Below are positions 23,203 through 38,919 of a stretch of DNA of 64,000 bases, piece after piece; positions within the stretch are counted from its first letter, which is position 1, and every line of letters begins with the position of its first letter. The position numbers and the translations under genes are program-made. Source of the stretch: Celeribacter neptunius. GTDB taxonomy: Bacteria > Pseudomonadota > Alphaproteobacteria > Rhodobacterales > Rhodobacteraceae. Location: the NCBI RefSeq assembly GCF_900113955.1, contig NZ_FORH01000002.1:186001-250000 (forward strand). Direction: 5' to 3'. The notes below the pieces were generated by a model that saw only the letters and a program-made list of their open reading frames with translations, was not told where the DNA came from and made no database searches.

Positions 23203-23267
23203 GGTCGTGGGTCCTTTTCGTTCGGTGTTCAAGGAATGAGATGTCAGGTGAGATGTGATCGGTCGCT

Positions 23268-24248: not shown

Positions 24249-25237
24249 GCCAGTTCCTCCGAAATCGTCTGATCGGCCGGCACCGGGTTCCAACAGGCCA
24301 CCTCATGCCCTGCCCTCTGTTCCATCTTCGGCACCTCTTGTGCGCAGGCCGCGGTGGCCGCGGCACAGCGCGGGTGGAACCGGCATCCGGGAACATGTTG
24401 CATCGGATCGGGCGGCGCGCCGGCGATGGGCCGGAGCGGCAGGTCGCGCGGCGTGTCGAGCCGCGGCACCGAGCTCAGCAGCCCGCGCGTATAGTGATGC
24501 ATCGGTGCGGCATAGAGCGCGGCGGCCGTCCCCGCCTCGACGATCCGCCCGCCATACATCACCGCCACTTTCTGGGCATAACGGGCGACGATGCCGAGAT
24601 TATGGGTGATCAGCACCAGACCGACGCCATGGTCGCGACAGATCCGCGCCGTCAGCGACAGGATCTGCGCCTGAATCGTCACGTCGAGCGCAGTGGTCGG
24701 CTCGTCGGCGAGGATCAGGCTCGGTTTTGACGACAGGGCAATCGCGATCATCACCCGTTGGCGCATGCCGCCGGAGAGCTGATGCGGATATTGCCTGAGC
24801 CGCTGCGCCGGATCGGAAATCCCGACCTCCTCCAGAAGCTCGATGGCCCGCGCCGTGGCCTGTTTGCGATTGAGCCCGAGCTTGAGCCGCATGCCTTCGG
24901 TGATCTGATGGCCGATGGTGCGCACCGGGTTCAGCGAGGTCATCGGCTCCTGAAACACCATGGCGATCTCGCTGCCGCGCAACTGGTTGCGCGCGCGCTC
25001 GTCAAAATGAGTGATGTCCTGCCCCTTGTAGCGAATCGTCCCGGCGCCGACCGAGAGCCCTTCGCTCAGAAGCCCCATGACCGCGAGCGCACTCAGGGAC
25101 TTGCCAGAGCCGGATTCGCCAACAATCGCCAGCGTTTCCCCCGGCTCCACCGAAAAGCTCGCATCATGCACGAGGCGGTGACACGCCTCACCAACCGCCA
25201 CATCGATCGCCAGATTTTCCACCGCCAGAAGGCTCAT
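24245..25237 (-). CDS. ABC transporter ATP-binding protein, DppD type
   Basis: A 330-residue ATPase with Walker A GESGSGKS (about 36-43), [10 protein letters not shown]-loop, signature [15 protein letters not shown], Walker [13 protein letters not shown] and a C-terminal [11 protein letters not shown] cysteine cluster. I choose the ATG at 25237 (MSLLAVENL) because GAGGAAA lies just upstream; the GTG at 25249 overlaps that ribosome site. First gene of the leftward operon, facing the GntR gene at 25339 across a 101-base shared promoter region. Confidence 0.95.
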
Positions 25238-25338
25238 TCTTTTCCTCACTTTGCATCGATGTCTTGCTGGACATCCGCGCGACTTATCATTATCAATATT
25301 GTTATCGATAATTAAGTCCAGTCAAAAAAGAGTTGTCA
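25238..25338. promoter_or_regulatory. Divergent operator region for GntR gene and ABC/GGT operon
   Basis: The 101 bases between the divergent genes include an AT-rich stretch (25281-25316) with nested symmetry: ATTATC (25289-25294) mirrored by GATAAT (25307-25312), the 10-bp palindrome TTATCGATAA (25302-25311) and CAATATTG (25294-25301). Such a region between a GntR gene and its target operon is the expected autoregulatory operator. It differs from the GTATAC type at 17607. Confidence 0.55.
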
Positions 25339-26073
25339 ATGGGTTCGAGACAGTCACTTCAGGATATGATCGCCGCTGCCCCAAAAATCGGCGGAAAAAA
25401 GTCGGATGTTGCCTACGGAATAATCAAACGGGCGATCATCTTCCGCTATTACGCACCCGGCACCCTGCTCCGCGAACAGGAACTGGCGCGCGAGCTTCAG
25501 TGCAGCCAGGGCACCGTGCGCGAGGCGCTGATGCATCTGGTCGAGGACGGGCTGGTGCAGCGCTCGGGCTATCGCGGCACCCAGGTCACCGACATCAGCC
25601 ATGCCGAAGCCGCCGAGATGGTCCGCGTCCGCCTCTCCATCGAACGTTCGGTCGCTCAGGGCATCGCGCAAAACGGCATTTCCGCCGTGGATCGCGACGC
25701 CCTGGAGGCGATGATCGCCGACATGGAACAGGCGCATATTCGCGAGGACCAGTTTCAGGGTGCCGAGCTCGACCGCGCCTTTCACGCCCGTATCGCCGAG
25801 GCCGCCGGCATGGCGCTGCTTTCGCCGATTCTGCAACGCTGCTCGCTGCATATCCATCGCTTCACCCTCGGCGGGCTGGAAGTGCCCCGCGACTTCTTTC
25901 AGGAAAGCGGCGTCGGCAAGGAACATCAGGCGCTCCTCGACGAGCTTCTGTCCCGTGACGAGGCGCGCGCCACCGCAGCGATGGCCGGGCATCTGCGGCA
26001 CATCCTGACCCGTTGGGCCCCCTCCCTGCTCGAGACCGTCGGCGATGCCGCCTTCAGCATGCCCGCAGCCTGA
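25339..26073 (+). CDS. GntR family transcriptional regulator (FCD type)
   Basis: A 244-residue regulator. The winged helix-turn-helix spans about residues 25-90 (YGIIKRAIIFRYYAPGTLL, then ELARELQCSQGTVREALMHL), and the FCD ligand domain follows, with FHARIAEAAGM and HQALLDELLSRDEA where metal-coordinating Asp/His residues usually fall. The ATG at 25339 has AAGAG 7 bases upstream; a TTG two codons earlier is possible. It faces the ABC/GGT operon and reads into the DUF1028 gene, so it likely controls both. Confidence 0.92.
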   Translation: MGSRQSLQDMIAAAPKIGGKKSDVAYGIIKRAIIFRYYAPGTLLREQELARELQCSQGTVREALMHLVEDGLVQRSGYRGTQVTDISHAEAAEMVRVRLSIERSVAQGIAQNGISAVDRDALEAMIADMEQAHIREDQFQGAELDRAFHARIAEAAGMALLSPILQRCSLHIHRFTLGGLEVPRDFFQESGVGKEHQALLDELLSRDEARATAAMAGHLRHILTRWAPSLLETVGDAAFSMPAA

Positions 26074-26123
26074 GCCCAAGAGCCCAAACGACAGCCAGCC
26101 CAAATAACAGAAGAGACACTCAG

Positions 26124-26876
26124 ATGACCTATTCGATCGTCGCCCGGGACCCGGACACCGGCCATCTCGGCATTGCCGTCGCCAGCCGCTTTTTCGCCGT
26201 CGGCTCGCTGGTACCGCAGATCGACGGTAAGGTCGCGGTGGCCAGCCAGGCTTTCGTCAACCCGCTCTGGGGCGTCGACGGGGCTGCGCAAATGGCCGAA
26301 GGCCTCTCTGCCGCCACGGTGATCACCGGGCTGGCCGCGCGCGACACGTTTCAATCCCAGCGCCAGGCCCATATGATCGATCTCGAGGGGCGCTCTGCCG
26401 CCCATACCGGGGCGGATTGTATCGACTGGGCCGGGCACCGGATCGCCGACGGGGTGTCGGTCGCCGGCAATATGCTGGTGGGGCCGGCGGTGGTCGAGGA
26501 CACGCTCGCCGCCTATCTCGATCATATGGACCTGCCCTTTGCCGAGCGCCTGCTTCTGGCGATGGAGGCCGGTGAGGCCGCCGGCGGCGACAAGCGCGGC
26601 AAACAAGCTGCGGCCCTGCGCATCCATCGTGGCGAAGCCTTCCCCTGGATCGACATCCGCGCCGACGATCACGCCGATCCGCTGGCCGAGCTGCGCCGAC
26701 TGCTCTCTGTGGCCGGCGAACGCGCCCTGTTCTTTGCCGACGAGCTGGGGCATTCCGGATCGTTCAGCGGGCGCGCCGACCGCAGCATTCTCGAAGCGGG
26801 CATCGCAAAGGCCGAACAAGACCGCGCCGCGCGCGGTCTGAGCTCGCAATCTTTCGCCACCAACACAGACATCTGA
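26124..26876 (+). CDS. DUF1028 family putative Ntn-hydrolase
   Basis: A 250-residue protein of the DUF1028 family. The start TYSIVARDPDTGHLGIAVASRFFAVGS (abridged) is the family hallmark; after removal of Met1 the chain begins with Thr2, the position expected of an N-terminal nucleophile. The fold is predicted to be proteasome/Ntn-hydrolase-like, but I know of no settled enzymatic role. It lies 50 bases after the GntR gene and opposite a GGT-containing peptide importer operon, which suggests a role in breaking an amide bond of the imported substrate. Cytoplasmic; no signal peptide. Confidence 0.88.
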   Translation: MTYSIVARDPDTGHLGIAVASRFFAVGSLVPQIDGKVAVASQAFVNPLWGVDGAAQMAEGLSAATVITGLAARDTFQSQRQAHMIDLEGRSAAHTGADCIDWAGHRIADGVSVAGNMLVGPAVVEDTLAAYLDHMDLPFAERLLLAMEAGEAAGGDKRGKQAAALRIHRGEAFPWIDIRADDHADPLAELRRLLSVAGERALFFADELGHSGSFSGRADRSILEAGIAKAEQDRAARGLSSQSFATNTDI

Positions 26877-27250
26877 CCGGGCGCCCAATCGGGACCCCAA
26901 TCAGAAGCCCGACAAGACGCGCAATCCGCTCCTGCAGAGATCACGATCGGCGGGGGCGACAAGCACGCCCTGCCCGATCCGCCGGTCTCTTCCGGCCGCT
27001 TTGCCCAGCCCGGGAACCGCGCCGCAACACCGGCGCGACGCAACCTCCCGCCGCCCGGCCCCACTCCACACGCATCCCCTACCCGCGGAGATCGCGAATC
27101 TGACGCGGTCAATTTATTCGGGAGGCGTTTTGGAATCCCCCTTGCGACGCCCTGCAATTCATGCTTGTCTCATATTTGAGACAAATCTCTTTGCGTGGCC
27201 AAAATTTAGGCTCCGCACTCAGATTTCATGAGATTTCAAACGAGTCCACC
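26877..27250 (+). promoter_or_regulatory. Intergenic region before the XRE gene
   Basis: This 374-base gap has no convincing gene. An imperfect GC-rich inverted repeat at 26947-26959 and 26967-26979 (10 of 13 pairs, 7-base loop) could end the GntR-DUF1028 transcript. The right third becomes AT-rich and holds the TTGTCTCA/TGAGACAA operator at 27165-27184. Confidence 0.4.
27165..27184. promoter_or_regulatory. Inverted-repeat operator upstream of the XRE regulator
   Basis: TTGTCTCA (27165-27172) and TGAGACAA (27177-27184) are perfect 8-base arms around TATT. The central 16 bases (27167-27182) match 14 of 16 with a site at 28189-28204 before the TRAP operon, so this is a strong candidate for the regulator's own binding site, 67 bases before the chosen start. 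Confidence 0.7.
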
Positions 27251-28132
27251 GTGGAAGAGACGCAAATCAATTTCAAAGACATCGGCGCGCGGCTGAAGGC
27301 CCATCGCCTTGGTCGCAACCTGTCGCCCGAGGATCTGGCCACGCGGCTGAACATTTCCCGCGCCGCCCTGTATCGCGCCGAGAAAGGCGAAATCGCCAAG
27401 ATTGACATGCTGTCCGCGATTGCCGGCGAGCTGCAAGTATCGCTCCCGAGCCTCCTGGGCGTCGGCATCGAATATGTCGACAATGCCCTGAGCTTTTTCG
27501 AGCGCATGCGTCAGATCGAGGAAGATTGCGACCAGATCATCGGCCTGTTCAGCCCGATTTCCTATCTCGTCACCACCGATCAATATGACACGATCCTCAA
27601 GGATGTGCTCGAGGAGGGAGCACAGCCTGACGAGCACGAGGATATCGCAAGAATATTGGAGATCCTGAAACAAAGAAAGCGGAGTTTTGGCCAGCGGCGA
27701 CCGCTGCTCGCCTCGATCATCGCCGACGCGGACATCCGGAAGTTCCTGCGCGAAGGACTTGAAGGCAGCGCCGAACTGACGCCCGAAGTGCACCGGCAGC
27801 GCCGTCAGATGGCGCTCCGCGAAGTGCGCCATATCGTGGAAATGCTGCGCTCTCCCGACATCGGCGTGCAGATCGGCGTCGCGCGCGAACCGATCCCGTC
27901 CACCTCGTTTCAGATCATGCGCCAGGCCGGGCGCTCGATCCTGACCATCAGCCCCTTTCGCCTCGGCCACAACCCGAACACCCGCATCGGCGTGGGCCTG
28001 ATCACCTCTGCGCCCGAAGCTCTGGAGCTGCACGAGGGTATCGCGGAGCGACTCTGGAACACCGCCCTGAAAGGCCGCGAAGCCGCCGACCATGTGGAGG
28101 CGCTCATCGCGCATGAGGGGGTGAAAGCCTGA
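27251..28132 (+). CDS. XRE-type helix-turn-helix transcriptional regulator
   Basis: A 293-residue protein. The N-terminal lambda-Cro-like HTH is clear (IGARLKAHRLGRNLSPEDLATRLNISRAALYRAEKGE, residues about 11-47). The rest is helical with no family I recognise; a C-terminal block around SFQIMRQAGRSILTISPFRLG may be a ligand-binding beta region. I prefer the GTG at 27251: the frame is open to an ATG at 27161, but that would place the operator inside the coding region and adds residues unlike an HTH N-terminus. No strong ribosome site is seen. It lies upstream of, and in line with, the TRAP/dihydroorotate operon. Confidence 0.82.
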   Translation: MEETQINFKDIGARLKAHRLGRNLSPEDLATRLNISRAALYRAEKGEIAKIDMLSAIAGELQVSLPSLLGVGIEYVDNALSFFERMRQIEEDCDQIIGLFSPISYLVTTDQYDTILKDVLEEGAQPDEHEDIARILEILKQRKRSFGQRRPLLASIIADADIRKFLREGLEGSAELTPEVHRQRRQMALREVRHIVEMLRSPDIGVQIGVAREPIPSTSFQIMRQAGRSILTISPFRLGHNPNTRIGVGLITSAPEALELHEGIAERLWNTALKGREAADHVEALIAHEGVKA

Positions 28133-28188
28133 AACATGCGCCCAAAAATGCGGCACAAAAATAAATCAACTGATCAAAACTGAGTTTC

Positions 28189-28204
28189 GTCTCATTTTTT
28201 AGAC
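28189..28204. promoter_or_regulatory. Second XRE-type operator, before the TRAP/pyr operon
   Basis: GTCTCATTTTTTAGAC matches 14 of 16 bases with the core of the inverted repeat upstream of the XRE gene (GTCTCATATTTGAGAC), keeping the GTCT and AGAC ends and their 8-base spacing. It lies 73 bases before the TRAP receptor start, in a promoter-like AT-rich stretch. Confidence 0.65.
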
Positions 28205-28276
28205 TTTGCTATTGACCTCACCGGAGCTTTCGGGAGTCAATGCTGTCATAACAAACCTGACAACCGGGAGCACCTC

Positions 28277-29284
28277 ATGCCTCACCCCCAATCCCTTCTT
28301 TCCGCTGCATTGCTTGCCGGGCTGGCGATGACCAGCCCCGCACTCGCCCAGGACTACGTGGCCCGTATCGGCCATCTCGAAAGCACCCAGCAAAGCCGCC
28401 ACATCCATCTCGAGAAAGTGGCAGAGCTCGTCGCAGAGCGCACCGATGGCGATGTCGAATTCCAGCTCTTTCCGCAGGGCCAGCTCGGCAACCAGCGTCA
28501 GATGAACGAAGGCGTGCAGCTCGGCACGCTCGAGGCCACCGTTGCCCCCGCCGCCTTCCTCGGCGGTTTCAACCCGCTGGTCTCGGTCCTCGACATCCCC
28601 TATCTGATCCCGGAAGACGCCGACAAAGCCGCCGCGCTGCGCGACGGTCCCTTCGGTCAGGCGCTGCTCGACAGTTTCTCCGACAAGGGCATGGTGGCGA
28701 TCGACCTCTGGCCCAATGGCAAGAAACAGTTCACCTCGAACGAACCGCTCGACACGCTTGCCGATTTCGCCGGTCAGAAATTCCGCGTGATGGACAGCTC
28801 GATCCTGATCGAACAGTTCAACGCGCTTGGCGCCTCCGCCATCGCACTGCCGTTCGGCGAGCTTTACACCTCGCTGCAAACCGGCGTTGTGGACGGCGAG
28901 GAAAACCCGCTCGACACGATCAAGGCGATGAAATTCTACGAGGTGCAAAAGAACCTCGTGGTGTCTGACCATGGCGCGATGGAGGATGTGATCCTGTTCA
29001 ACCCGATGTTCTGGAACAGCCTGCCGGAAGACTACCAGACCATCATCAAGGATGCCTTTGCCGAGGTGATCCCGGATCTGACCGCGCACAAGGCCGCCGC
29101 CGTCGACGCCGCGCTTGAGACCATCAAGGAGGCGGGCACCAATGTGCGTGTCGCCGACGAGGCCGAACGCGCCGAATTCCGCGAAAAAATGTTCGGCCCG
29201 GCCTCTGCCGCCTATGTCGCCAAGACCGGCGACGCGGGCCAGGCGCTTCTGGACATCTACACCGAGGCCTACGGCAGCCTCTAA
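28277..29284 (+). CDS. TRAP transporter solute-binding protein (DctP family)
   Basis: A 335-residue periplasmic receptor with a Sec signal (hydrophobic core LLSAALLAGLAM, cleavage after ALA, mature start QDYVARIGH). The DctP core shows AEFQLFPQGQLGNQRQMNEGVQLG-like residues 70-95, QKFRVMDSSILIEQFNALGA and the ligand-binding YTSLQTGVVDGEENPLDTI block near residue 195. GGGAGCACCTC precedes the ATG. It leads an operon with dihydroorotate dehydrogenase-like and carbamoylase genes, so a carboxylated pyrimidine such as orotate or dihydroorotate is the suggested ligand (inference). Confidence 0.94.
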   Translation: MPHPQSLLSAALLAGLAMTSPALAQDYVARIGHLESTQQSRHIHLEKVAELVAERTDGDVEFQLFPQGQLGNQRQMNEGVQLGTLEATVAPAAFLGGFNPLVSVLDIPYLIPEDADKAAALRDGPFGQALLDSFSDKGMVAIDLWPNGKKQFTSNEPLDTLADFAGQKFRVMDSSILIEQFNALGASAIALPFGELYTSLQTGVVDGEENPLDTIKAMKFYEVQKNLVVSDHGAMEDVILFNPMFWNSLPEDYQTIIKDAFAEVIPDLTAHKAAAVDAALETIKEAGTNVRVADEAERAEFREKMFGPASAAYVAKTGDAGQALLDIYTEAYGSL

Positions 29285-29290
29285 ATCCCT

Positions 29291-29319
29291 GAGGGACCCG
29301 GGTTCATCCCGGGCCCCTC
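29291..29319 (+). terminator. Stem-loop after TRAP receptor gene
   Basis: GAGGGACCCGGG (29291-29302) and CCCGGGCCCCTC (29308-29319) pair at 11 of 12 positions around a 5-base loop, 6 bases after the receptor stop and before the small permease. Likely stabilises the receptor message or attenuates read-through. Confidence 0.65.
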
Positions 29320-29383
29320 GCGCCCCGCCCCGGCCCTGTCCGACCGCGGTGCCTCTCCTTCCACGGTGATCGAAAGCCCTCTC

Positions 29384-29875
29384 ATGAAAGCTCTCAATCT
29401 GCTCCGTACGGTCGAAAGAACCGTGCTCATCGCGCTATTTCTCTTCATGGTGTTTCTCTACACCGGCTCGGTGGTGACCCGCGAAATCGGCGGCACCTTT
29501 GCCAGCCGCTTTGCCTGGATCGAGGAAGCGGTGCGGATCATGAACCTGTTTCTGGTGTTTCTGGCCCTCGGGCTGGCGCTGGAACGCGGCAAACATGTGG
29601 GCATCACCAACCTGCGCGACAGGCTTCCGGCTCCGATCATCTCCCTGTTGTTGAAGATCATCGATCTGGTCGGCCTCGGCATGAGCCTCTACGTGGCCTG
29701 GCTGGCGCTCGATCTGGTGCAATTCGTGCTCAAAACCGGCCAGAAATCCCCGACCCTGGGCGTGCCCATGGGCTATATCTACCTCGCTCCCGTCGCCGGT
29801 TTCGCCCTCCTGGGCCTGCGCTACGGGCTGAGCCTTCTCGGCCTCATCGACCGCTATCAGGAGGCCTCCGAATGA
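29384..29875 (+). CDS. TRAP transporter small permease (DctQ)
   Basis: A 163-residue four-helix protein. TM1 is VLIALFLFMVFLYTGSVVTREI, the conserved amphipathic motif FAWIEEAVRIMNLFLVFLALGLALERGKHVGI (abridged) follows, and the last two helices end near residue 150. The ATG at 29384 is chosen over an in-frame GTG at 29366; either leaves the first helix intact. It overlaps the DctM gene by ATGA. Confidence 0.9.
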   Translation: MKALNLLRTVERTVLIALFLFMVFLYTGSVVTREIGGTFASRFAWIEEAVRIMNLFLVFLALGLALERGKHVGITNLRDRLPAPIISLLLKIIDLVGLGMSLYVAWLALDLVQFVLKTGQKSPTLGVPMGYIYLAPVAGFALLGLRYGLSLLGLIDRYQEASE

Positions 29876-31155
29876 TCTTTGCCCTCATCCTCCTTCTGGC
29901 CGTCCTGCTTCTGGTGGCAGGCTTTGAAATGCTCCTCGTGCTGAGCATTCCGGCACTCGCTTACAAGGAAGCCTTCTACGCCCGCCTGCCCGACGCCGCC
30001 GTGGTGCAAAAAATCGTCGGCGGCATCGATCACTCGACGCTTCTGGCGATCCCGTTCTTCATCTTCGCGGCCAATCTCATGGGCTCGGGCCAGATCGCGC
30101 GCCAGCTCATCTCCGTCGTCAAGGCGCTCGTCGGCCACACCAAGGGCGGCATGGGCCATGTCGTCGTCGGCGGTTCCATGGCGTTCGGCGCGGTCTCCGG
30201 CTCGGCGCCGGCCACCGTGGCCGCGATGGGCCGCATGGTCTATCCGGAGCTGCGCAAGGCCGGATATTCCGACCGGTTCAGCCTCGGACTTCTGGTCTCC
30301 TCCGCCGAAACCGCGCTTTTGATCCCGCCGTCGATCACCCTGATCGTCTATGGCTGGATCACCGGCACCTCGATCTCGAAACTCTTCGCGGGCGGGCTGG
30401 CCGTCGGCATCGTCCTCGGCCTCGCCTTTTCCGTCTATGTCCGCATTCAGGCGGCCCGCGATGGTGTCAGCCATGATGCGCGCCTGCCCTGGTCCGCGCG
30501 GTTCAAGGCGATCTGGGAGGCGAAATGGGCCTTGGGCATGCCGGTGATCATCCTCGGAGGCATCTATTCCGGCATCATCACCCCCACGGAGGCCGCCGCC
30601 GTCAGCGTGGTCTATGCCATCCTTGTCGAGATGTTCGTGTTCCGCGCGCTCGATCTCAAAGGCCTCGCCAAGATCACCGAGGACAGCGCGGTGAACACCT
30701 CGATCATCTTTGTCCTGCTGGCGATGGGCGGGTTGATTTCCTTCTTCGTCACGCTGGCGCAGGTGCCGAATGAGATCATCGGCTTTCTCGAGGCCACAGG
30801 GGCCGGCAAGATCACCTTCCTGATCGCAGTCAACCTGTTGTTCTTCGTCGCGGGCATGTTCATCGATCCGAACTCGACGCTTCTGGTGCTGGTGCCGCCG
30901 CTCTACCCTGTGGCGATGAGCTTTGGCATCGACCCGGTGCATTTCGGCATGCTGGTGACATTGAACGTCAGCCTCGGGATGATCACACCGCCCTTCGGGC
31001 TCGACATTTTCGTCGCCTCCTCGACGCTCAACAAACCGGTGGCGGATATCATCCGCGGCGTCTGGCCCTTCGTGCTGGTGAACCTGATCGTGTTGTTGCT
31101 GATCACCTATATTCCGCAAATCTCCCTCTTCATTCCCAAGCTGATCTACGGCTGA
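29872..31155 (+). CDS. TRAP transporter large permease (DctM)
   Basis: A 427-residue membrane protein with about 12 helices. Family motifs include GGSMAFGAVSGSAPATVAAMGRMVYPELRKAGY (abridged, about residues 100-130), SAETALLIPPSITLIVYG and LNVSLGMITPPFGLDIF near the end. This is the short DctM subgroup, unlike the longer one at 14566. It carries the Na+-dependent substrate step. Its stop is 14 bases before the PyrK-like gene. Confidence 0.95.
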   Translation: MIFALILLLAVLLLVAGFEMLLVLSIPALAYKEAFYARLPDAAVVQKIVGGIDHSTLLAIPFFIFAANLMGSGQIARQLISVVKALVGHTKGGMGHVVVGGSMAFGAVSGSAPATVAAMGRMVYPELRKAGYSDRFSLGLLVSSAETALLIPPSITLIVYGWITGTSISKLFAGGLAVGIVLGLAFSVYVRIQAARDGVSHDARLPWSARFKAIWEAKWALGMPVIILGGIYSGIITPTEAAAVSVVYAILVEMFVFRALDLKGLAKITEDSAVNTSIIFVLLAMGGLISFFVTLAQVPNEIIGFLEATGAGKITFLIAVNLLFFVAGMFIDPNSTLLVLVPPLYPVAMSFGIDPVHFGMLVTLNVSLGMITPPFGLDIFVASSTLNKPVADIIRGVWPFVLVNLIVLLLITYIPQISLFIPKLIYG

Positions 31156-31169
31156 GAAAAGGCAGACCA

Positions 31170-32012
31170 ATGACCCACATTCCGACCACCGTGTCCGTCC
31201 CTGTTCCGCAGGGGCTGCGGCCCCGCTGTTCCGAAGCCACCTGTCGCGTGGTCTCGAACACCCCGGTGAATGGCGAATATCGCCTGCTCACGCTCGACGC
31301 CCCCGAAGCCATTCTCGACTGCCAGCCCGGTCAGTTCTTTCAACTGCTCTGTCCGGCACCCGAGGGGGAAAGCCCGTTCCTGCGCCGTCCGATGAGCATC
31401 TACGGCTATGACAAAGCCGCAGGCCGGCTGGAGTTTCTCTACAAGATCGCGGGGGCCGGCACGCGCGGCCTTGCCACGCTCACGCCCGGCGACGCCTTCA
31501 ACGTGCTCGGCCCGCTGGGGCATGGGTTTTCCATGCCGGACGTTTGGCAGAACCTCCTGCTGGTGGCGCGCGGCGTCGGGCTTGCCACCCTCGCCCCTCT
31601 GGCGCGCATGGCGCAGGACAAGGGCCGCAAGCTGACCGCGATCTGTTCCGCACGCCGCCCCGATCTGGCGATGTCTACCGCCCTGTTCGAAAGCTACGGC
31701 GCCGAGGTGATCGTGGTGCATGACGAGGACGGCAGCTCCACCCCCGAGGCGCTGCGCCCGCTGATCGAAGCGCGCATCGCCCGTGGAGACGTGGACGCCT
31801 TCTACACCTGCGGCTCCTCAAGGCTTCTGCGCCTGTTGCAGGAGCTTGGCGAGATCCACGGCATCCCCGGCGAGATCGCCATGGAACAGCAAATGGCCTG
31901 TGGCCTCGGCATGTGTCAGGCCTGTGTGCGCAGCTTCCGGGTCGGCGAGCGGATCATTCAGCGCCGGGTCTGCCGCGAAGGGCCGGTGTTCGCCATTTCG
32001 GAGGCCATGTAA
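31170..32012 (+). CDS. Dihydroorotate dehydrogenase electron-transfer subunit-like protein (PyrK family)
   Basis: A 280-residue FAD/[2Fe-2S] reductase subunit. The FAD-binding segment FLRRPMSIYG is near residue 72, the NAD-binding half starts at LLLVARGVGLATLAPLARMA, and four C-terminal cysteines (Cys244, 249, 252, 268) have PyrK spacing. PyrK lets class 1B dihydroorotate dehydrogenase use NAD(H), so the enzyme can run toward orotate or, with NADH, toward dihydroorotate. It overlaps the PyrD-like gene by one base. I avoid a firm gene name because the operon looks catabolic or salvage rather than biosynthetic. Confidence 0.85.
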   Translation: MTHIPTTVSVPVPQGLRPRCSEATCRVVSNTPVNGEYRLLTLDAPEAILDCQPGQFFQLLCPAPEGESPFLRRPMSIYGYDKAAGRLEFLYKIAGAGTRGLATLTPGDAFNVLGPLGHGFSMPDVWQNLLLVARGVGLATLAPLARMAQDKGRKLTAICSARRPDLAMSTALFESYGAEVIVVHDEDGSSTPEALRPLIEARIARGDVDAFYTCGSSRLLRLLQELGEIHGIPGEIAMEQQMACGLGMCQACVRSFRVGERIIQRRVCREGPVFAISEAM

Positions 32013-32950
32013 TGAAAGATCTGTTCTCTCCCGACCTGAGCGCCCGGATCGGATCGCTGACGCTGCAAAACCCGATCATGCCCGCCTCCGGCACGTTTTC
32101 CGAGGACCTTGCCGATGTCTTTGACCTCGATGTTCTGGGCGCGCATGTGCTCAAGACCATCATGCACGGCACCCGCGCGGGCAATCCGACGCCGCGGGTC
32201 TGTGACATGCAATCGGGCATGATCAACGCCATCGGCATCCCGTCCAAGGGCATCGACTATTTCCGCGACGACATGCTGCCCTATTGGGCCGGGTTCAGAT
32301 CCCCGCTCGTGGTGTCGATCTCGGCGCATTCCATGGATGAATTCGCAAGGCTGTGTTCCGAGGTCAGCCTGCCCGGCGTCACCGCGATCGAGGCGAATAT
32401 CTCCTGCCCCAACATCGAGGCCGACGGCAACGCCTTTGCCATGCGCCCCGATACCACCCATGAGGTCGTGACGCGGCTGCGCGCGGAGACCGATCTGCCG
32501 CTCTGGGCCAAGCTGACGCCCAACACCGGCACCCCGGTCGAGGTGGCCCAGGCCGCCGAAGCCGCAGGCGCCGACGCTCTGGTCACCGCCAACACCATGC
32601 TCGGCATGTCGATCGACATCGACAGCCGCCGCCCGCGTCTCGGCAATGTCATGGGCGGCATGTCCGGCCCGGCGATCAAACCCATCGCGCTCCGCATGAC
32701 CTACCAATGCGCCCGGGCCTGCAACATTCCGGTGATCGGCTGCGGCGGCATCTCGACCCTCTCCGATGTGCTCGAATTCCTCATCGCCGGCGCACGCGCG
32801 GTGCAGATCGGCACCGCGACCTTCCAGTCGCCCACCGTCATGGCACGTCTCATCACCGAGCTGCAGGGCTGGATGGTGGCACGCGGCATCGCCTCGCTCG
32901 ACGAGATCATCGGCAGCATCGAGGCGCCCGAGGCCGGGGTGTTCGAATGA
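32012..32950 (+). CDS. Dihydroorotate dehydrogenase catalytic subunit-like protein (class 1B)
   Basis: A 312-residue FMN-dependent TIM-barrel enzyme. Landmarks: NPIMPASGTFSED at residues 20-32, the catalytic cysteine Cys132 in EANISCPNIE (class 1 enzymes use Cys, class 2 Ser), the NTM-x-G-x-x-x-D region in VTANTMLGMSIDID, and the FMN phosphate sites GCGGISTLSD and AGARAVQIGTA near the end. It pairs with the upstream PyrK-like subunit. The start ATG shares a base with the previous TAA. Converts dihydroorotate and orotate, or a related dihydropyrimidine; the latter is not excluded since dihydropyrimidine dehydrogenases share this fold. Confidence 0.86.
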   Translation: MKDLFSPDLSARIGSLTLQNPIMPASGTFSEDLADVFDLDVLGAHVLKTIMHGTRAGNPTPRVCDMQSGMINAIGIPSKGIDYFRDDMLPYWAGFRSPLVVSISAHSMDEFARLCSEVSLPGVTAIEANISCPNIEADGNAFAMRPDTTHEVVTRLRAETDLPLWAKLTPNTGTPVEVAQAAEAAGADALVTANTMLGMSIDIDSRRPRLGNVMGGMSGPAIKPIALRMTYQCARACNIPVIGCGGISTLSDVLEFLIAGARAVQIGTATFQSPTVMARLITELQGWMVARGIASLDEIIGSIEAPEAGVFE

Positions 32951-34212
32951 AACATCATCGCACAGAGGAACTCTCCGTCCTCGCGGCTGAGATATTCGAG
33001 GACATTCGCGCTCTGTCCCGCGACACGGCGGGCGTCAGCCGTCCGGCCTTTTCCGAGACCGAGAGCGAAACGCTGGACTATCTCGCCGCCCGCGCCCGGG
33101 CGGAAGGCTTGTGCGTTACAGAAGATGCGGGACACAACCTTTTGTTTTCTCTTCCGGAACACGAGGAGGCCGGCAGGTTCTCCGTCATCGGCAGCCACGT
33201 AGACAGCGTCCCCATGGGCGGGAATTACGACGGGCTCGCGGGTGTGATCGCCGGGCTGATCGTGCTGATCGCCGCCCGCCGCGGGCAGCGCAGCCTCTCT
33301 CGCCCGGTCAAGGTTCTGGCCATGCGCGGCGAGGAAAGCGCCTGGTTCGGGGCCTGTTACATCGGTTCGAAAATGCTCACCGGCACCCTGCCCGAGGGCG
33401 AATTCAACGCCGCGCACAAGGGCGACGGTCGCCCCCTGAGCGCACATCTCGAAGACCTCGGCATCGACACCGCACCGGTCAAGGCGCATCGGCCGCTCTG
33501 CGATCTGAACCGGATCGACGCCTATCTCGAACTGCATATCGAACAGGGGCCGCTTCTGGTCGAACGCAACATCCCCGCCGCTGTGGTCACCGGCATTCGC
33601 GGCAATTTCCGCTACCGCGACGCGCGCTGTATCGGCCAGGCCGGGCATTCGGGCGCGGTGCCGCGCGCCTATCGCCACGACCCGGTTCTGGCCTTTGCCG
33701 AGCTGATGCACCGGCTCGACGGCACCTGGCGGCATCTGCTCAACACCGGACAGGATCTCGTCTTGACCTCGGGCGTGGTCGGCACCGATCCGACCCGGCA
33801 CGCCATCGCCCGCATCCCCGACGAGATCGCCTTTTCCCTCGACATCCGCTCGCAGGACGCCGCCACGCTCGACCGGATGCGCAGCTATCTCAAGAGCGAG
33901 ATGGAGGATATCGCCCGCAGCCGTGGTGTGCGTTTCACCCTCGGCGCCGAGGTCGCCGTGGCCCCGGCGCTCATGGACCCGACACTGGTCAAAGCGCTGG
34001 AAGAGGCCATGGCAAATGTCACCGGAGAGGCCTTTTCCATGGCTTCGGGCGGCGGTCACGACGCGGCGGTGTTCGCGCAGGCGGGCGTGCCCTCGGGCAT
34101 GGTCTTCGTGCGCAACCGCAACGGCTCGCACAATCCCGACGAGGCGATGGAGATCGCCGATTTCATGGTGGGCGTCGATATTCTTTCCAACTACATGGAG
34201 GCGGCATCATGA
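32947..34212 (+). CDS. M20 family N-carbamoyl-L-amino acid hydrolase / ureidosuccinase-like
   Basis: A 421-residue Zn-dependent amidase of the hydantoinase/carbamoylase family. Metal and substrate motifs: GSHVDSVPMGGNYDG (about residues 84-98), GEESAWFG (about 132-139), LHIEQGP (about 198-204) and RNGSHNPDE near the end; the lid domain has GQAGHSGAVP. Relatives cleave N-carbamoyl amino acids, beta-ureidopropionate or allantoate. Next to dihydroorotate dehydrogenase-like genes, N-carbamoyl-L-aspartate is the attractive substrate, giving aspartate, CO2 and ammonia. ATGA overlaps tie it to both neighbours. Confidence 0.88.
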   Translation: MKHHRTEELSVLAAEIFEDIRALSRDTAGVSRPAFSETESETLDYLAARARAEGLCVTEDAGHNLLFSLPEHEEAGRFSVIGSHVDSVPMGGNYDGLAGVIAGLIVLIAARRGQRSLSRPVKVLAMRGEESAWFGACYIGSKMLTGTLPEGEFNAAHKGDGRPLSAHLEDLGIDTAPVKAHRPLCDLNRIDAYLELHIEQGPLLVERNIPAAVVTGIRGNFRYRDARCIGQAGHSGAVPRAYRHDPVLAFAELMHRLDGTWRHLLNTGQDLVLTSGVVGTDPTRHAIARIPDEIAFSLDIRSQDAATLDRMRSYLKSEMEDIARSRGVRFTLGAEVAVAPALMDPTLVKALEEAMANVTGEAFSMASGGGHDAAVFAQAGVPSGMVFVRNRNGSHNPDEAMEIADFMVGVDILSNYMEAAS

Positions 34213-34955
34213 AGGACCCTCGCGCCATGCCCAAGACTCTCCCCCAGCCCCTCTCCCAGACCATGCCCCTCAGCCCCGAGACCCGGGCCGATTTCGCCCG
34301 CCGCACCGCGCTGGCGCTGCTCGACATCCGGGCCGTGGAAGTGGCCGGTGCCCGACCGTTCATCCTGTCCTCGGGGATCGCCAGCCCGGTCTATATCAAC
34401 GTGCGCAAGGTGATTTCCGTCCCCGCCCTGCGCGAGAAACTCATGAGCTTTGCCACAGAGGTGATCGACGCCGAGATCGGCCGCACCAATATCGACGCCA
34501 TCGCCGGTGCCGAAACCGCCGGCATCCCCTTTGCCGCCTGGATCGCCGCCCTGACCGGCCTGCCGATGCACTATGTGCGCAAGCGCGCGCAGGGCTTTGG
34601 ACCAGAGGCGCATATCGAAGGCATATGGGAGCCGGGCCAACGCGTCCTTCTGGTCGAGGACCTGACCACCGACGGCGCCTCGAAACTGCGGTTCTGCGAG
34701 GCGCTGCGGGCGGCGGGGCTCGCGGTGCAGGACGTGTTCATGCTGTTCCAGTATGACATCTTTCCCGAGACCCGGGTGGCGATGTCGGAGGCCGGCATCC
34801 GCCTGCATGCGCTGGCCACCTGGCAAGATATTCTCGACGTGGCCCGCGCGCATGACCGGTTCACCCCGCAACAGCGTGATATGATCGCCGACTTCCTCGA
34901 CAACCCGCTCGACTGGTCCGCCGCCCATGGTGGCGCACGCAGCCTGACGTTTTAA
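34209..34955 (+). CDS. pyrE: Orotate phosphoribosyltransferase
   Basis: A 248-residue phosphoribosyltransferase joining orotate and PRPP to make OMP. Motifs: FILSSGIASPVYINVRK (abridged; orotate site, about residues 51-67), HYVRKRAQGFG (about 121-131), and the PRPP loop VLLVEDLTTDGAS (146-158). The family usually has TTGGS at the loop; TDGAS is an acceptable variant. A 20-residue N-terminal extension precedes the family start. It overlaps the carbamoylase stop. Within this operon it would salvage imported or locally formed orotate into UMP synthesis; a second biosynthetic pyrE elsewhere is possible. Confidence 0.9.
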   Translation: MKDPRAMPKTLPQPLSQTMPLSPETRADFARRTALALLDIRAVEVAGARPFILSSGIASPVYINVRKVISVPALREKLMSFATEVIDAEIGRTNIDAIAGAETAGIPFAAWIAALTGLPMHYVRKRAQGFGPEAHIEGIWEPGQRVLLVEDLTTDGASKLRFCEALRAAGLAVQDVFMLFQYDIFPETRVAMSEAGIRLHALATWQDILDVARAHDRFTPQQRDMIADFLDNPLDWSAAHGGARSLTF

Positions 34956-34981
34956 TCCCCCGATGTTTTAAGGAGACACCG

Positions 34982-35299
34982 ATGTTCACCTTCCTTCTCG
35001 ATCTGATCACCGAAAAAGGCCGCGGCATTCACGCCTATTCGGCGGCGGCCAAAGCCGCATTCGAACGCGCCCTGACAGAGCCCGAACATGCCGCCGCCTT
35101 CTATTTCCTCGCCACCAGCGCCGAGAATTTCGTTGACCTGCACGAACGCCAGCCGCTCTCGAGCGAGGCGCTCGAACGGAACTTCAACGCTTTTCAGGCC
35201 GACATCCAGGCCCTTGAAAAAGTGGCGCAAGACAGCCCCGAAAAGCGGCTGTCCGTGCTCAACACGATGGTGAAAACCAGAATCGCGCAGAGCCGCTGA
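34982..35299 (+). CDS. Small conserved-looking protein of unknown function
   Basis: A 105-residue, mostly helical soluble protein beginning MFTFLLDLITEKGRGIHAYS, with no signal peptide and one clear amphipathic C-terminal helix (FNAFQADIQALEKVAQ). I recognise no family. AAGGAG 6 bases upstream of the ATG and its place 26 bases after pyrE show it is a true operon member. It may be a pathway accessory or assembly factor. It has no cysteines, so iron-sulfur binding is unlikely. Confidence 0.75.
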   Translation: MFTFLLDLITEKGRGIHAYSAAAKAAFERALTEPEHAAAFYFLATSAENFVDLHERQPLSSEALERNFNAFQADIQALEKVAQDSPEKRLSVLNTMVKTRIAQSR

Positions 35300-35491: not shown

Positions 35492-35746
35492 ATGACACAC
35501 CCGCATCGGCATGCAAGCCACCCCAAGGTCATCGCCCGCCTCAAACGCGCCGACGGGCATCTGCGCTCGGTCATAGAGATGATCGAAGAGGGCAGGTCCT
35601 GCCGCGACATCGCCCAGCAATTGCAGGCGGTGGAGAGCGCGATCCGCAATGCCAAACAGACGCTGATCCACGACCACATGGAGCATTGCCTCGATGCGGG
35701 CGAAGCCGACCGGGCGGAGATGAAAGCCATCTCGCGCTACCTGTGA
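35492..35746 (+). CDS. CsoR/RcnR family metal-sensing repressor, DmeR-like
   Basis: An 84-residue all-helical repressor of the DUF156 family. Candidate metal ligands are the N-terminal histidines (His3, 5, 7, 10), Cys37 in EEGRSCRDIAQQL, His60, His62, His65 and Cys66 in LIHDHMEHC. An N-terminal His together with Cys37 and His60/62 is the nickel/cobalt type of site (RcnR, DmeR) rather than copper (CsoR) or formaldehyde (FrmR). It likely releases the palindrome at 35468 on metal binding. It is 7 bases upstream of the exporter gene. Confidence 0.88.
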   Translation: MTHPHRHASHPKVIARLKRADGHLRSVIEMIEEGRSCRDIAQQLQAVESAIRNAKQTLIHDHMEHCLDAGEADRAEMKAISRYL

Positions 35747-35753
35747 GGCCCCG

Positions 35754-37073
35754 ATGCTCGACATTCTCAAGGACCGAACCTATCGCCATCTCTTCCTGGC
35801 GCAGATCGTGGCGCTTCTGGGCACCGGGCTCGCCACGGTGGCGCTCGGGCTTCTGGCCTATGATCTCGCCGGTGAAAATGCCGCCCTTGTGCTGGGCACG
35901 GTGTTCACCATCAAGATGGTGGCCTATGTCGGCATCGCGCCCGTGGCGGGAGCATTCGCCGATCGGGTGAACCGGCGGGCCTTTCTGGTGACGCTCGATC
36001 TGATCCGGGGCGCTGCGGCGCTCGCCCTGCCCTTCGTCACCGAGGTCTGGCAGGTCTATGCGCTCATATTCCTGCTGCAATCGGCCTCCGCCGCGTTCAC
36101 CCCGACATTTCAGGCAACGATCCCCGATGTCCTGCCCGAGGAGGCGCGCTACACCCGCGCGCTCTCTCTTTCTCGTCTGGCCTATGATCTGGAGAATATC
36201 GTCAGCCCGACGCTCGCTGCGCTCCTGCTCGCGGTGATGAGCTACAACAGCCTGTTTCTCGGCACGGTGGCGGGGTTCATCGCATCGGCTCTGCTCGTAG
36301 TCTCGATTCTGCTGCCGAGCCCGAAAGCCTCGGAGCCGCGCGGCATCTATGAGCGCACCACACGGGGGCTGCGCATCTATCTTGCCACGCCGCGGCTGCG
36401 CGGGCTTCTCGCCGTCAACCTCGCGGCGGCGGCGGCGGGCGCCATGGTGTTGGTCAATTCGGTGGTGATCGTGCGCGGCGAACTTGGCCTCTCCGAGAGT
36501 GCCCTGGCCTGGACCATGTTCGCCTTTGGCATGGGCTCGATGGCGGCGGCGCTGTTTCTGCCGCGCCTGCTCGAGCGCCGGCCCGACCGGCCGGTCATGC
36601 TCACCGGGGCGGCGCTGATGATCGCGGTGCTGCTGGCGCTGGCGGTCTGGATCTCGTTGCGGGGGCTGTCATGGCCGGCGCTGCTTGCCGCATGGGCGCT
36701 CACCGGCTTGGGCTATTCGACGGTGCTGACGCCGTCGGGGCGGCTCCTGCGCCGCTCCGCCCATGCCGAGGACCGGCCGGCACTTTTCGCCGCGCAATTC
36801 GCCCTGTCGCATGCCTGCTGGCTCCTGACCTATCCGCTCTCGGGCTGGTTGATCACCCGTTTCGGCACCGTACCGGCGCTGATCGCGCTCTCGCTGCTCG
36901 CGGCCCTCGGCCTTGCCGTCGCGCTGCGCCTCTGGCCCAGGGGCGACCCGGTGGAGATCGAGCACAGCCACGACAACCTGCCGCCGGATCATCCGCATCT
37001 ACAGGGGCACGCGACCCACCGTCATCCGCTGGTGGTCGACGATCTGCATCCGCGCTGGGGCACCCGGTTCTGA
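35754..37073 (+). CDS. MFS exporter with histidine-rich C-terminal tail, possible Ni/Co efflux
   Basis: A 439-residue major facilitator of the MFS_3/enterobactin-exporter type, with about 12 helices from LFLAQIVALLGTGLATVALG and the inter-helix motif GAFADRVNRR. The last 40 residues (EHSHDNLPPDHPHLQGHATHRH region) carry many His residues, as in the nickel-resistance protein NreB. With the DmeR/RcnR-like repressor just upstream, export of nickel or cobalt is the best guess. GAGG precedes the ATG. It converges on the multicopper oxidase gene with an 18-base gap. Confidence 0.85.
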   Translation: MLDILKDRTYRHLFLAQIVALLGTGLATVALGLLAYDLAGENAALVLGTVFTIKMVAYVGIAPVAGAFADRVNRRAFLVTLDLIRGAAALALPFVTEVWQVYALIFLLQSASAAFTPTFQATIPDVLPEEARYTRALSLSRLAYDLENIVSPTLAALLLAVMSYNSLFLGTVAGFIASALLVVSILLPSPKASEPRGIYERTTRGLRIYLATPRLRGLLAVNLAAAAAGAMVLVNSVVIVRGELGLSESALAWTMFAFGMGSMAAALFLPRLLERRPDRPVMLTGAALMIAVLLALAVWISLRGLSWPALLAAWALTGLGYSTVLTPSGRLLRRSAHAEDRPALFAAQFALSHACWLLTYPLSGWLITRFGTVPALIALSLLAALGLAVALRLWPRGDPVEIEHSHDNLPPDHPHLQGHATHRHPLVVDDLHPRWGTRF

Positions 37074-37091
37074 GCGCCCCTCGCCGGAGGT

Positions 37092-38477
37092 TCAGGCCAC
37101 CTCGATCCAGGTGGTCATGCCCGAGGCGGCATGGCCGAGCATATGACAGTGGAACAGCCATTTGCCGGGGTTGTCGGCCGTAAAGGCAATCTCGGTCGTT
37201 TGCCCCGGCAGGCTCAGCAGCGTGTCACGCATCGGTCCCTGCACCTCCCCGACGATTTCGCGGAAATGCTGGCCGTGCAAATGCATCGCATGCGGAAAGA
37301 CCGTGTCGTTGATCAGTTTCAATCGCACCGGTTCGCCGCGCGACAGCCGGGCAAACGGCGCCTCGTCCATGCCCGCCACGCCCGCCAGCGTCCAGAACAT
37401 GCCGTCTTGCATCATCTGGCGAAAGCCCATCATCTGACCGTTCATCCGGCCCGAGGGCATATTGCCCATGGCACCGCCCTCCATCCGCATCTCGAGCTTT
37501 GTGGCGCGGCCGAGATCGACCGGGGCCATGCCCGGGTTGGGCGGCAACGGCAGCGGCTCCGCCGCGCGCCCTGTTGCCTCACCGGACAGATCGAACCCGA
37601 CCTGCACCCGCCATTCTTCGTCATCGTCGGCGCGCAGGATGGCAACCTCCTGGGTCTCCTCGGCGCTGACATCGACGATGAGATCGACCCGCTGTGCCGG
37701 CGCGAGGATGATCTCGCCATCGACCTTCTCAGGCGCGTCCAGAGGCATGCCGTCGAGCGCCACGGTCCAGCCGGAAAGCCCGGCGAGCCGCAGCACGAAA
37801 ATCCGCGCATTCGCGGCGTTGATCAACCTGAGCCGCAACCGCTCGCCACGTTTTGCGGTGAGCCGATAGCCATAGCGGCCGTTGGTGCCAATCAGATTGC
37901 CCCGGCGCCCGGCATGGCTGAGATCCATCGGATGGTCAAAAGCCGGATCGATCTGCGCCGTTTCGGGATCGAGCAGCCAGTCATCGAGCATCAGCACCTC
38001 ATCGCGATCGACATCCGGGCCGTCGGCTTCCTCCACGATCAGCGGGCCATAGAGCCCGCGCGCGACCTGTTCCATCGAGCTGGTATGGGCGTGATACCAA
38101 TAGGTTCCGGCATCCGGCAGGGTGAAATCATAGGTGAAGCTCTGCCCGGGCGACACCGCTTCCTGGGTCAGACCGGCCACCCCGTCCATCGCATTGTCGA
38201 TGCGGATGCCATGCCAATGTATCGAGGTCGGCACCGGCAAATTGTTGAGGAGTTCGCGTCTGATCCGCCCGCCTTGCGGGAGACGGATCATCGGGCCGGG
38301 GAAGGCTCCGCCATAGCTGTAGACTTCGGTCACGGGATAGGTCTCCGGCGCGATCTGCGCCTGTGCGACCTCCGCGGTCAGCCCTTCCGGCCCTGCGGCA
38401 AGGCTTGCCCGGGGCAACAGGCTCAGCGCGCCCGTCCCGGCAAGGAACTGACGACGGGAAAATGCAATCGGCTTCAT
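37092..38477 (-). CDS. Multicopper oxidase, CueO/CopA-like
   Basis: A 461-residue periplasmic oxidase exported by Tat (SRRQFLAG at residues 7-14). All four copper motifs are present: HWHG (87-90), YHAH (128-131), HAMHLHG near 395, and HCHMLGHAASGM with His443, Cys444, His445, His449 and axial Met454. A Met-rich segment (MEGGAMGNMPSGRMNGQMM, roughly 335-355) resembles the Cu(I)-collecting region of CueO. It oxidises Cu(I) to Cu(II). It starts 1 base after the cytochrome c stop and is the last gene of the cueR-led unit. Confidence 0.93.
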   Translation of the reverse strand: MKPIAFSRRQFLAGTGALSLLPRASLAAGPEGLTAEVAQAQIAPETYPVTEVYSYGGAFPGPMIRLPQGGRIRRELLNNLPVPTSIHWHGIRIDNAMDGVAGLTQEAVSPGQSFTYDFTLPDAGTYWYHAHTSSMEQVARGLYGPLIVEEADGPDVDRDEVLMLDDWLLDPETAQIDPAFDHPMDLSHAGRRGNLIGTNGRYGYRLTAKRGERLRLRLINAANARIFVLRLAGLSGWTVALDGMPLDAPEKVDGEIILAPAQRVDLIVDVSAEETQEVAILRADDDEEWRVQVGFDLSGEATGRAAEPLPLPPNPGMAPVDLGRATKLEMRMEGGAMGNMPSGRMNGQMMGFRQMMQDGMFWTLAGVAGMDEAPFARLSRGEPVRLKLINDTVFPHAMHLHGQHFREIVGEVQGPMRDTLLSLPGQTTEIAFTADNPGKWLFHCHMLGHAASGMTTWIEVA

Positions 38478-38478
38478 C

Positions 38479-38919
38479 TCAGTTGATCCCGTTCGCCAGT
38501 TGCATTTCCCGGACATAGGCGACGATCGCCTTGACGTCGCCCCGTGTCACGCCCGGTTGCGGCGGCATATTGCCGAAGCGCCAGTGATGCGCCTGCACAC
38601 CGCGTTCGGCGGCCATGACAAAGGCCATGTCGCCATGATGTGAAGGCTCATAGATCTTATGCACGAGCGGCGGACCGAAGCCCTCTTTGCCGGCGGCATT
38701 TTCGCCATGGCAGGCGGCGCAGACCGCATCAAAGGCGCGTTTGCCGATCTCGGCATTGGCCGAAAGCATATCCGGCAGGGCGACCTGGACGATGGCGGCG
38801 CCTTCGGCGGGTTTCGAGGAGGCGGCCATGGGGGCGCTCGCCGGTGCGGGTTTCAAGGTGAGATAGGCCCCGAGCGCCAGTGCAATGACACCGGCTGCGG
38901 GCAGGACAAATTTGTTCAT
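38479..38919 (-). CDS. Class I cytochrome c
   Basis: A 146-residue protein with an N-terminal membrane helix or uncleaved signal (FVLPAAGVIALALGAYL) and one haem site CAACH at residues 67-71. The likely axial Met is in FGNMPPQPG near residue 119, with the usual C-terminal helix KAIVAYVREMQ after it. Periplasmic and possibly tethered, it could carry electrons for the multicopper oxidase encoded immediately downstream. Confidence 0.9.
   Translation of the reverse strand: MNKFVLPAAGVIALALGAYLTLKPAPASAPMAASSKPAEGAAIVQVALPDMLSANAEIGKRAFDAVCAACHGENAAGKEGFGPPLVHKIYEPSHHGDMAFVMAAERGVQAHHWRFGNMPPQPGVTRGDVKAIVAYVREMQLANGIN

Follow-up and report, generated by a model that had tools for sequence, protein, structure and literature searches.

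A predicted orotate-use operon with a TRAP importer in Celeribacter neptunius

What is the role of an operon that sets a TRAP (tripartite ATP-independent periplasmic) transporter before genes of pyrimidine metabolism, in a genome that holds such genes elsewhere as well? The question is raised by a stretch of 64,000 nucleotides from Celeribacter neptunius, a probably marine bacterium (assembly GCF_900113955.1, contig NZ_FORH01000002.1; C9:186001-250000 of the 4.40-Mb genome; hereafter the window). Here, genes for an XRE-family regulator, the transporter proteins DctP, DctQ and DctM, a PyrK-like protein, PyrD, an M20 amidohydrolase, a PyrE paralogue and a small protein, orf105, follow one another. 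Based on protein families and gene context, it is very probable that this operon is an inducible system for the use of orotate, from which DNA and RNA building blocks are made; orotate would be converted through dihydroorotate and carbamoyl-aspartate to aspartate. Orotate breakdown is old biochemistry. Clostridium oroticum degrades orotate with an NADH-dependent dihydroorotate dehydrogenase, a dihydroorotase and a ureidosuccinase; its three steps are those predicted here, where the activities are predictions and the enzymes are joined by a TRAP importer, operators for the XRE protein, a small protein and a PyrE paralogue.

Nine + strand open reading frames occupy positions 27161-35299. The junctions from dctQ to pyrE overlap by 1-4 bases, with the exception of DctM/PyrK, where there are 14 free bases. 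The gene families are supported by Pfam and NCBIfam, in agreement with the gene list and tight packing on one strand given in the initial annotation, which was made from the sequence alone. A GTG start at 27251 is preferred for the regulator, and therefore the first palindrome stays 5′ of its start codon. The features are as follows.

27165-27184, + strand: operator-like palindrome TTGTCTCATATTTGAGACAA, 5′ of the likely XRE start codon; exact both-strand pattern match at 27167-27182.
27251-28132, + strand: XRE-family regulator with an N-terminal helix-turn-helix (Pfam HTH_3); GTG 27251 preferred over the mechanical reading frame start at 27161.
28188-28204, + strand: second operator-like site CGTCTCATTTTTTAGAC, 5′ of dctP (GTCTCATTTTTTAGAC is 28189-28204).
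28277-29284, + strand: TRAP solute-binding protein DctP, predicted orotate binder (Pfam DctP, 278.5 bits; 4nn3, E 1.6e-130).
29366-29875, + strand: TRAP small permease DctQ, GTG start (Pfam DctQ, 86.4 bits).
29872-31155, + strand: TRAP large permease DctM (Pfam DctM, 358.1 bits; TIGR00786).
31170-32012, + strand: PyrK-like electron-transfer subunit (FAD, 2Fe-2S) of a class 1B dihydroorotate dehydrogenase (Pfam DHODB_Fe-S_bind; PDB 5ksw_B/1ep1_B).
32012-32950, + strand: PyrD, class 1B-type dihydroorotate dehydrogenase catalytic subunit (TIGR01037, PRK07259; PDB 5ue9/1ep1).
32947-34212, + strand: M20 amidohydrolase, predicted N-carbamoyl-L-aspartate amidohydrolase (ureidosuccinase) (TIGR01879; PDB 3n5f; cassette-specific arginines).
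34209-34955, + strand: orotate phosphoribosyltransferase paralogue in which Gln replaces the catalytic-loop Lys (NF001729; loop alignments; second PyrE in the genome).
34982-35299, + strand: orf105, a helical protein of 105 aa that probably partners the M20 enzyme or acts as its accessory domain (conservation; natural fusion).

The importer is the first step of the proposed route. DctP is predicted from its sequence to be an orotate-binding TRAP protein. Its top PDB match is 4nn3 (438 bits over residues 19-333), and the next PDB entry, at 168 bits, is 270 bits lower. According to PMC11668362, 4NN3 is a TRAP binding protein from Maridesulfovibrio salexigens DSM 2638 that was solved bound to orotic acid, and at its carboxylate site Lys takes the place of the second Arg of other TRAP proteins; orotic acid is also listed among new TRAP ligands in a review (PMC5812351). 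DctP is 64 % identical to the 4NN3 protein, compared through the copy encoded in a genome. The window protein has that Lys, as K150, which together with R170, F193 and N210 is invariant in nine operon DctPs. It is likely that DctP-DctQM would import orotate.

The neighbours of the 4nn3 gene point in the same direction. A close DctP is found in 9 of the 149 genomes of the family that includes L115, a Pseudodesulfovibrio locus (its own genome counted), and one genome of this Desulfovibrionaceae group encodes the 4nn3 protein exactly, in 339/339 residues. In all eight loci fetched from the group, XRE is divergent from DctP-DctQ-DctM-M20-PyrC-PyrE. The protein crystallised with orotate therefore belongs to a closely similar gene set, and the M. 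salexigens system shares with the window the DctP, its ligand-site Lys and the neighbours XRE, DctQM, M20 and PyrE, with PyrC among them there.

Occurrence of the gene set was surveyed from DctP: 188 stretches gave 132 relatives, from named genomes and metagenome-assembled genomes, of which the best 80 were kept, and genes were scored by tblastn. This genome-context search, proposed as a check together with the initial annotation, found PyrK, PyrD and M20 to recur in 63 of the 80 DctP loci (PyrD weak in L115), with PyrK and M20 always together. Counting any match, these 63 operons have M20, PyrK and PyrD in 63 each, orf105 in 55, PyrE in 52 and a class II dihydroorotase (PyrC) in 31, and XRE lies beside dctP in 61. 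The protein collections, made from matches covering at least 60 % of the query, hold 51 PyrE, 28 PyrC, 62 M20, 61 PyrK, 63 PyrD and 55 orf105 sequences. The closest named DctP loci include Celeribacter strains (91-96 % identity). Pairwise dN/dS (the ratio of nonsynonymous to synonymous substitution rates) was computed for all nine genes with six relatives and lies at 0.03-0.23, with dS near saturation in some pairs (at most 1.97). Because of this and the recurrence in 63 of 80 loci, the gene set is not a product of chance. Across the 394 genomes of the window's family, PyrK-like genes (E ≤1e-20) are present in 10, nine with the operon, C. neptunius included, and one (L034) in another context. 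There (L034:4379-12810), and likewise at L208:3106-12054, a related PyrKD pair lies amid genes for an asparaginase, a Rieske-type oxygenase and a molybdenum hydroxylase.

For the first chemical step, PyrD scores above the cut-offs of PRK07259 (337.7 bits, cut-off 269) and TIGR01037 (306.4, cut-off 270). Its alignment with the class 1B enzyme extends through NISCPN, and the N-x-S-C-P-N motif, which holds the Cys of the catalytic loop, is present in 64/64 sequences. In PyrK, the DHODB Fe-S domain is recognised (45.5 bits, cut-off 23.9), with C244, C249, C252 and C268 invariant in 10 aligned sequences and the cysteine pattern kept in 61/62. The two subunits and the active-site motif are those of the Lactococcus class 1B dihydroorotate dehydrogenase (PyrD-PyrK, 1EP1 and kin), from which the window pair differs in its divergent PyrK and in being predicted to act reductively, in catabolism. 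With NADH, and in the reverse of the biosynthetic direction, PyrD-PyrK would convert orotate to dihydroorotate. PyrD also has weak similarity to PreA (132.5 bits, cut-off 335), and M20 enzymes include ureidopropionase, so a variant of the reductive uracil pathway (PreTA-type dihydropyrimidine dehydrogenase, dihydropyrimidinase and ureidopropionase) has to be considered. It is highly improbable, given that PyrD passes the dihydroorotate dehydrogenase equivalog cut-off and fails that of PreA, and that the genome has what looks, by resemblance, like a uracil cluster of its own at C9:7605-14188. This cluster consists of a DHO_dh-family gene, a dihydroorotase-like gene under the cut-off and a second M20 gene, the product of which is 26 % identical to that of the window.

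Dihydroorotate would be opened by a dihydroorotase to N-carbamoyl-L-aspartate. There is no dihydroorotase gene in the window operon, and here the step is presumably taken by the housekeeping enzyme, while in about half of the relatives the enzyme is encoded in the operon. The genome has a housekeeping class II pyrC (C5:322970-324004) beside the second pyrE (C5:322225-322926), another dihydroorotase, which belongs to the other class (C7:151362-152498; 301.8 bits, cut-off 279), and two more DHO_dh-family genes, one of them that of the uracil-like cluster; the operon therefore adds to basic pyrimidine metabolism. Among eight operons fetched from the window's family, three have pyrC, at 419-429 bits to TIGR00856 (cut-off 293). 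At L031:7689-7973 there is a 94-aa dihydroorotase remnant (33.6 bits) where relatives have an intact pyrC.

The last step is assigned to the M20 enzyme. It scores above TIGR01879 (267 bits, cut-off 204), with the metal-site motifs kept, and is under the equivalog cut-offs of ErtE (258.5, cut-off 520) and allantoate amidohydrolase (244.2, cut-off 479). Across 67 cassette M20s, R127, W133, R218, N220, R222 and R289 are at least 95 % conserved. R218, R222 and R289 are also found in the four plasmid cassettes compared, and the other M20 of the genome has Arg at none of these positions. Family membership and metal-site motifs are shared with 3N5F, allantoate amidohydrolase and ErtE, of the hydantoinase/carbamoylase family; in contrast to these, the cassette M20s have specific RGNxR and (S/A/T)RI arginines and lack the Asn of 3N5F, the Asn-Val of which is Ala-Arg in the window M20. 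The additional arginines would suit a dicarboxylate substrate, for instance carbamoyl-aspartate, and family, context and conserved arginines together suggest that the enzyme is a ureidosuccinase. With orf105 as its partner, it would convert N-carbamoyl-L-aspartate to aspartate, ammonia and CO2.

The names within the M20 family span hydantoin, allantoate and carbamoyl-glutamate chemistry, and the PyrKD pairs of L034 and L208 suggest that such pairs can serve other pathways. Both would suit an operon for an orotate analogue, such as a substituted orotate or the hydantoin of aspartate, with orotate only a mimic in the crystal. However, the dihydroorotase genes found beside M20 (class II, or class I in Pseudomonas putida) point to dihydroorotate and carbamoyl-aspartate as intermediates, and an analogue as the natural substrate is quite unlikely.

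The PyrE gene raises a different alternative, in which the operon serves salvage rather than breakdown: orotate, dihydroorotate or carbamoyl-aspartate would be taken through PyrC, PyrDK and PyrE to orotidine 5′-monophosphate (OMP), and M20 would have some other substrate. The protein scores above NF001729 (284.6 bits, cut-off 245) and just below TIGR00336 (104 vs 106.8). It is 45 % identical to the second PyrE of the genome, and its loop reads VRKRAQGFG; the Q is Lys in the housekeeping copy and in two solved relatives. In PMC10087573, this catalytic-loop Lys of orotate phosphoribosyltransferase (K103 in E. coli numbering) is termed essential, with earlier Gln and Ala substitutions having shown the need for it, and is conserved in all organisms compared except one, a natural exception.

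Of the 52 operon PyrE sequences, the window included, 34 have K at this loop position, 17 have Q and one has M. The residue is Q in 9/9 operon copies from the same genus, operon-type PyrE being present in 9 of 16 genomes (C. neptunius and 15 of the same genus), and K in 46/46 further PyrE matches. None of the 18 operons with a Q or M PyrE has pyrC. In a quick tree (SH-aLRT, the Shimodaira-Hasegawa-like approximate likelihood ratio test, as sole support; 48 of its 101 inner branches are open and some of its rows are long), 17 of these 18 cluster at full support with the nine same-genus Q copies, on a stem of about 1.2 changes per column. L067, the eighteenth, is just outside this cluster, paired with L098, which has K. 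A recent duplication of the housekeeping PyrE as the origin of the operon PyrE was rejected, as the tree separates the copies into two starred groups, the window PyrE among 46 rows (35 operon, 11 genome) and the housekeeping copy among 38 genome rows. A dead gene is likewise ruled out by the dN/dS of 0.065-0.156 against six relatives, and therefore some protein function has been retained.

The operon PyrE can thus be named neither a working orotate phosphoribosyltransferase nor a dead one; the Gln lowers the claim, although activity may still be possible. Salvage is favoured by the presence of the biosynthetic enzymes PyrE (52/63) and PyrC (31/63), by pyrF beside the cassette in one Agrobacterium plasmid, by 13 DctP relatives with ample flanking DNA and without the enzymes, which would fit uptake for salvage, and by the one species that naturally lacks K103 (PMC10087573), so that the window PyrE could still work. 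Yet all 63 PyrK loci have M20, whereas 11 of 63 are without PyrE, the window PyrE has Gln for the Lys termed essential in that source, orotate salvage requires no dihydroorotate dehydrogenase, and the genome has another PyrE and a PyrC. Salvage as the purpose of the operon is therefore unlikely, and salvage to OMP by its own PyrE is doubtful; in the catabolic scheme preferred here, PyrE would be a retained paralogue with an altered loop, and any salvage to OMP would probably pass through the housekeeping PyrE.

The last gene of the operon, orf105, has no match in Pfam or NCBIfam. Its AlphaFold model has five helices (predicted local distance difference test score, pLDDT, 95.2), and the predicted fold has no significant PDB match (best E 2.6). 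A hidden Markov model built from 47 of 56 sequences, including that of the window, matches cassettes of Klebsiella, P. putida, Variovorax and Cupriavidus. In plasmids of the Rhizobiaceae, two from Agrobacterium and two from Neorhizobium, the orf105 domain is found at residues 442-547 inside an M20 protein of 552-556 residues (L199:10754-12412, L203:10700-12358, L204:10751-12421, L205:10787-12457). The two Agrobacterium fusions are annotated as one hydrolase and the two Neorhizobium records are unannotated. This fusion is a strong hint that orf105 works with the M20 enzyme, of which it is a probable partner or accessory domain. To the earlier description of a small unknown protein it can be added that orf105 is a conserved part of most such operons.

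With regard to control, the XRE protein would bind the GTCTCA-N4-TGAGAC-like sites that precede its own gene and dctP, and would be released with orotate or an early product. The regulator sequences comprised 46 of 66 locus regulators, that of the window and three from the Desulfovibrionaceae group. Counting both strands, 43 of 67 XRE-dctP regions contain GTCTCA-N4-N(G/T)AGA or TCT(A/C)N-N4-TGAGAC, compared with a mean of 0.03 regions and a maximum of 1 in 100 dinucleotide shuffles; this form of the motif was picked post hoc, and related loci are not independent. The best site in each of the other 24 regions agrees with GTCTCA-N4-TGAGAC at 8-10 of 12 positions, as a raw count. Within the window, one further exact match is found at 48669, and the loose pattern, allowing one mismatch, shows no excess over chance (10 found, 12.3 expected). 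The operator claim is based on the two placed sites and conservation across the XRE-dctP regions. With the AlphaFold model of the regulator (pLDDT 89.1), Foldseek matches phospholipase-D-like folds as well as TrmBL2 (E between 6e-5 and 1e-3, with low TM-scores). On these modest scores, a phospholipase-D-like fold, also seen in TrmBL2, is predicted for the C-terminal domain; that this domain may be the orotate sensor is a guess.

A number of observations weigh against the orotate-use reading. PyrK is under all NCBIfam PyrK equivalog cut-offs (121.1/314, 120.6/270, 113.2/219, 91.9/224) and is therefore called PyrK-like. In 32 of the 63 operons pyrC is absent, although four of these loci (L052, L060, L103, L108) have less than 8.7 kb after the dctP start. 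Of the 17 loci of the 80 without the enzymes, three reach a contig border within 2.5 kb. The other 14 have no PyrK, PyrD or M20 nearby, with more than 10 kb downstream in 13 and 4.5 kb in L059 (L053, L056, L059, L061-L066, L068, L078, L086, L104, L114). These 14 keep transporter genes (DctP only in L104), and no dihydroorotate dehydrogenase or carbamoylase was found among the 20 neighbour genes scanned in nine of them; the same XRE regulator is present in three (L063, L068, L114). The transporter is therefore not tied to catabolism, and it may be asked whether these loci serve stand-alone orotate uptake.

The 4NN3 system also differs from the window. In the same eight Desulfovibrionaceae-group loci, PyrK (27-34 % identical) and PyrD (41-42 %) lie past XRE, apart from dctP and on the opposite strand, behind a gene for 658-662 aa (the one scanned encodes a U32 peptidase). 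These two genes may be housekeeping ones, and pyrC is present. Neither orf105 nor the operator motif (0/8 regions) was found in these loci; orf105, although present in L115 of that family, is therefore not needed everywhere. A second peculiarity of 4NN3, Asn at position 76 in 4P47 numbering, is reported in PMC11668362, and this position aligns by sequence, with unsure placement, with Q73, beside N72, in the window and 4nn3 alike. Nevertheless, most of what was proposed in the initial annotation stands: TRAP uptake of orotate, through the DctP orthologue solved with orotic acid and the shared site Lys; XRE control, through the operator-like palindromes that precede the regulator gene and dctP; the dehydrogenase pair and carbamoyl-amino-acid-type hydrolase as a catabolic route, through family cut-offs and co-occurrence in 63 loci; and dihydroorotase from elsewhere, with a housekeeping pyrC in the genome and pyrC inside 31/63 related operons. 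The exception is salvage to OMP through the operon's own PyrE, which is weakened by Gln in place of the catalytic-loop Lys. To our knowledge, the only assay result among these proteins is the ligand of 4nn3, the remaining functions being predicted.

Related enzymes are also carried on plasmids. A plasmid tblastn search with PyrK matched 75 records, 53 of them Klebsiella, of which 14 were opened, including one Klebsiella. The cassette M20 adjoins PyrKD in 12 of these 14. The Klebsiella, P. putida, two Variovorax and Cupriavidus plasmids also have a dihydroorotase, an XRE-type regulator and an orf105 homologue; a major facilitator superfamily (MFS) transporter is annotated beside PyrK in all of these except Cupriavidus, the record of which is unannotated there. 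The enzyme core PyrK-PyrD-M20 is thus found on plasmids without TRAP, with MFS carriers and with two dihydroorotase classes. The P. putida dihydroorotase is of the other class (class I), which suggests that this step was recruited to the cassette more than once. The Paroceanicella and Roseivivax plasmids have PyrKD without the cassette M20, and Roseivivax has another M20/M25/M40 gene 2 kb away. In the Klebsiella pneumoniae IncFIB plasmid (L197), the MFS, PyrKD, M20, PyrC, XRE-type regulator and orf105 homologue genes are flanked by copper and lac genes. A PyrK match, often annotated as hypothetical protein, is present in another 52 Klebsiella plasmid records.

A more far-reaching reading can be put forward tentatively. 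M20 and orf105 may form a dedicated two-part ureidosuccinase, with orf105 having a new fold and being fused to M20 in some Rhizobiaceae; PyrE of the window's group may have given up OMP synthesis for a role such as the sensing of orotate or phosphoribosyl pyrophosphate; and the whole may be a mobile catabolic cassette with exchangeable transporters, spread over Alpha-, Beta- and Gammaproteobacteria and Desulfovibrionaceae (in the last mostly without orf105). The natural K103 exception (PMC10087573) lowered the weight given to this.

Links between the operon and its neighbours were considered and rejected, both upstream (gamma-glutamyltranspeptidases, peptide ABC transporter, TRAP set, DUF1028) and downstream (a CsoR-like gene at 35492, which seems unrelated, and an MFS gene). 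The upstream region, 12976-26876 of the window, holds two gamma-glutamyltranspeptidases, a peptide ABC transporter, a second TRAP set, a GntR regulator and a DUF1028 protein, and perhaps serves gamma-glutamyl peptide use. Downstream, 35492-38919 has the CsoR-like repressor, then the MFS gene and, on the opposite strand, a multicopper oxidase and a cytochrome c (the last three identified by eye), perhaps for metal handling.

The initial annotation knew of no description of this combination. Among the literature matches listed, as titles and abstract openings, there is likewise no account of the operon and no gene set assigned to orotate breakdown in Proteobacteria, although the orotate-bound structure is mentioned. 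One regulated cassette with a solved orotate-binding importer makes each step of the predicted route testable, including a candidate ureidosuccinase sequence. It would also link a named enzyme with a small protein that had no annotation, and it presents an orotate phosphoribosyltransferase paralogue that is maintained under selection without its catalytic-loop Lys.

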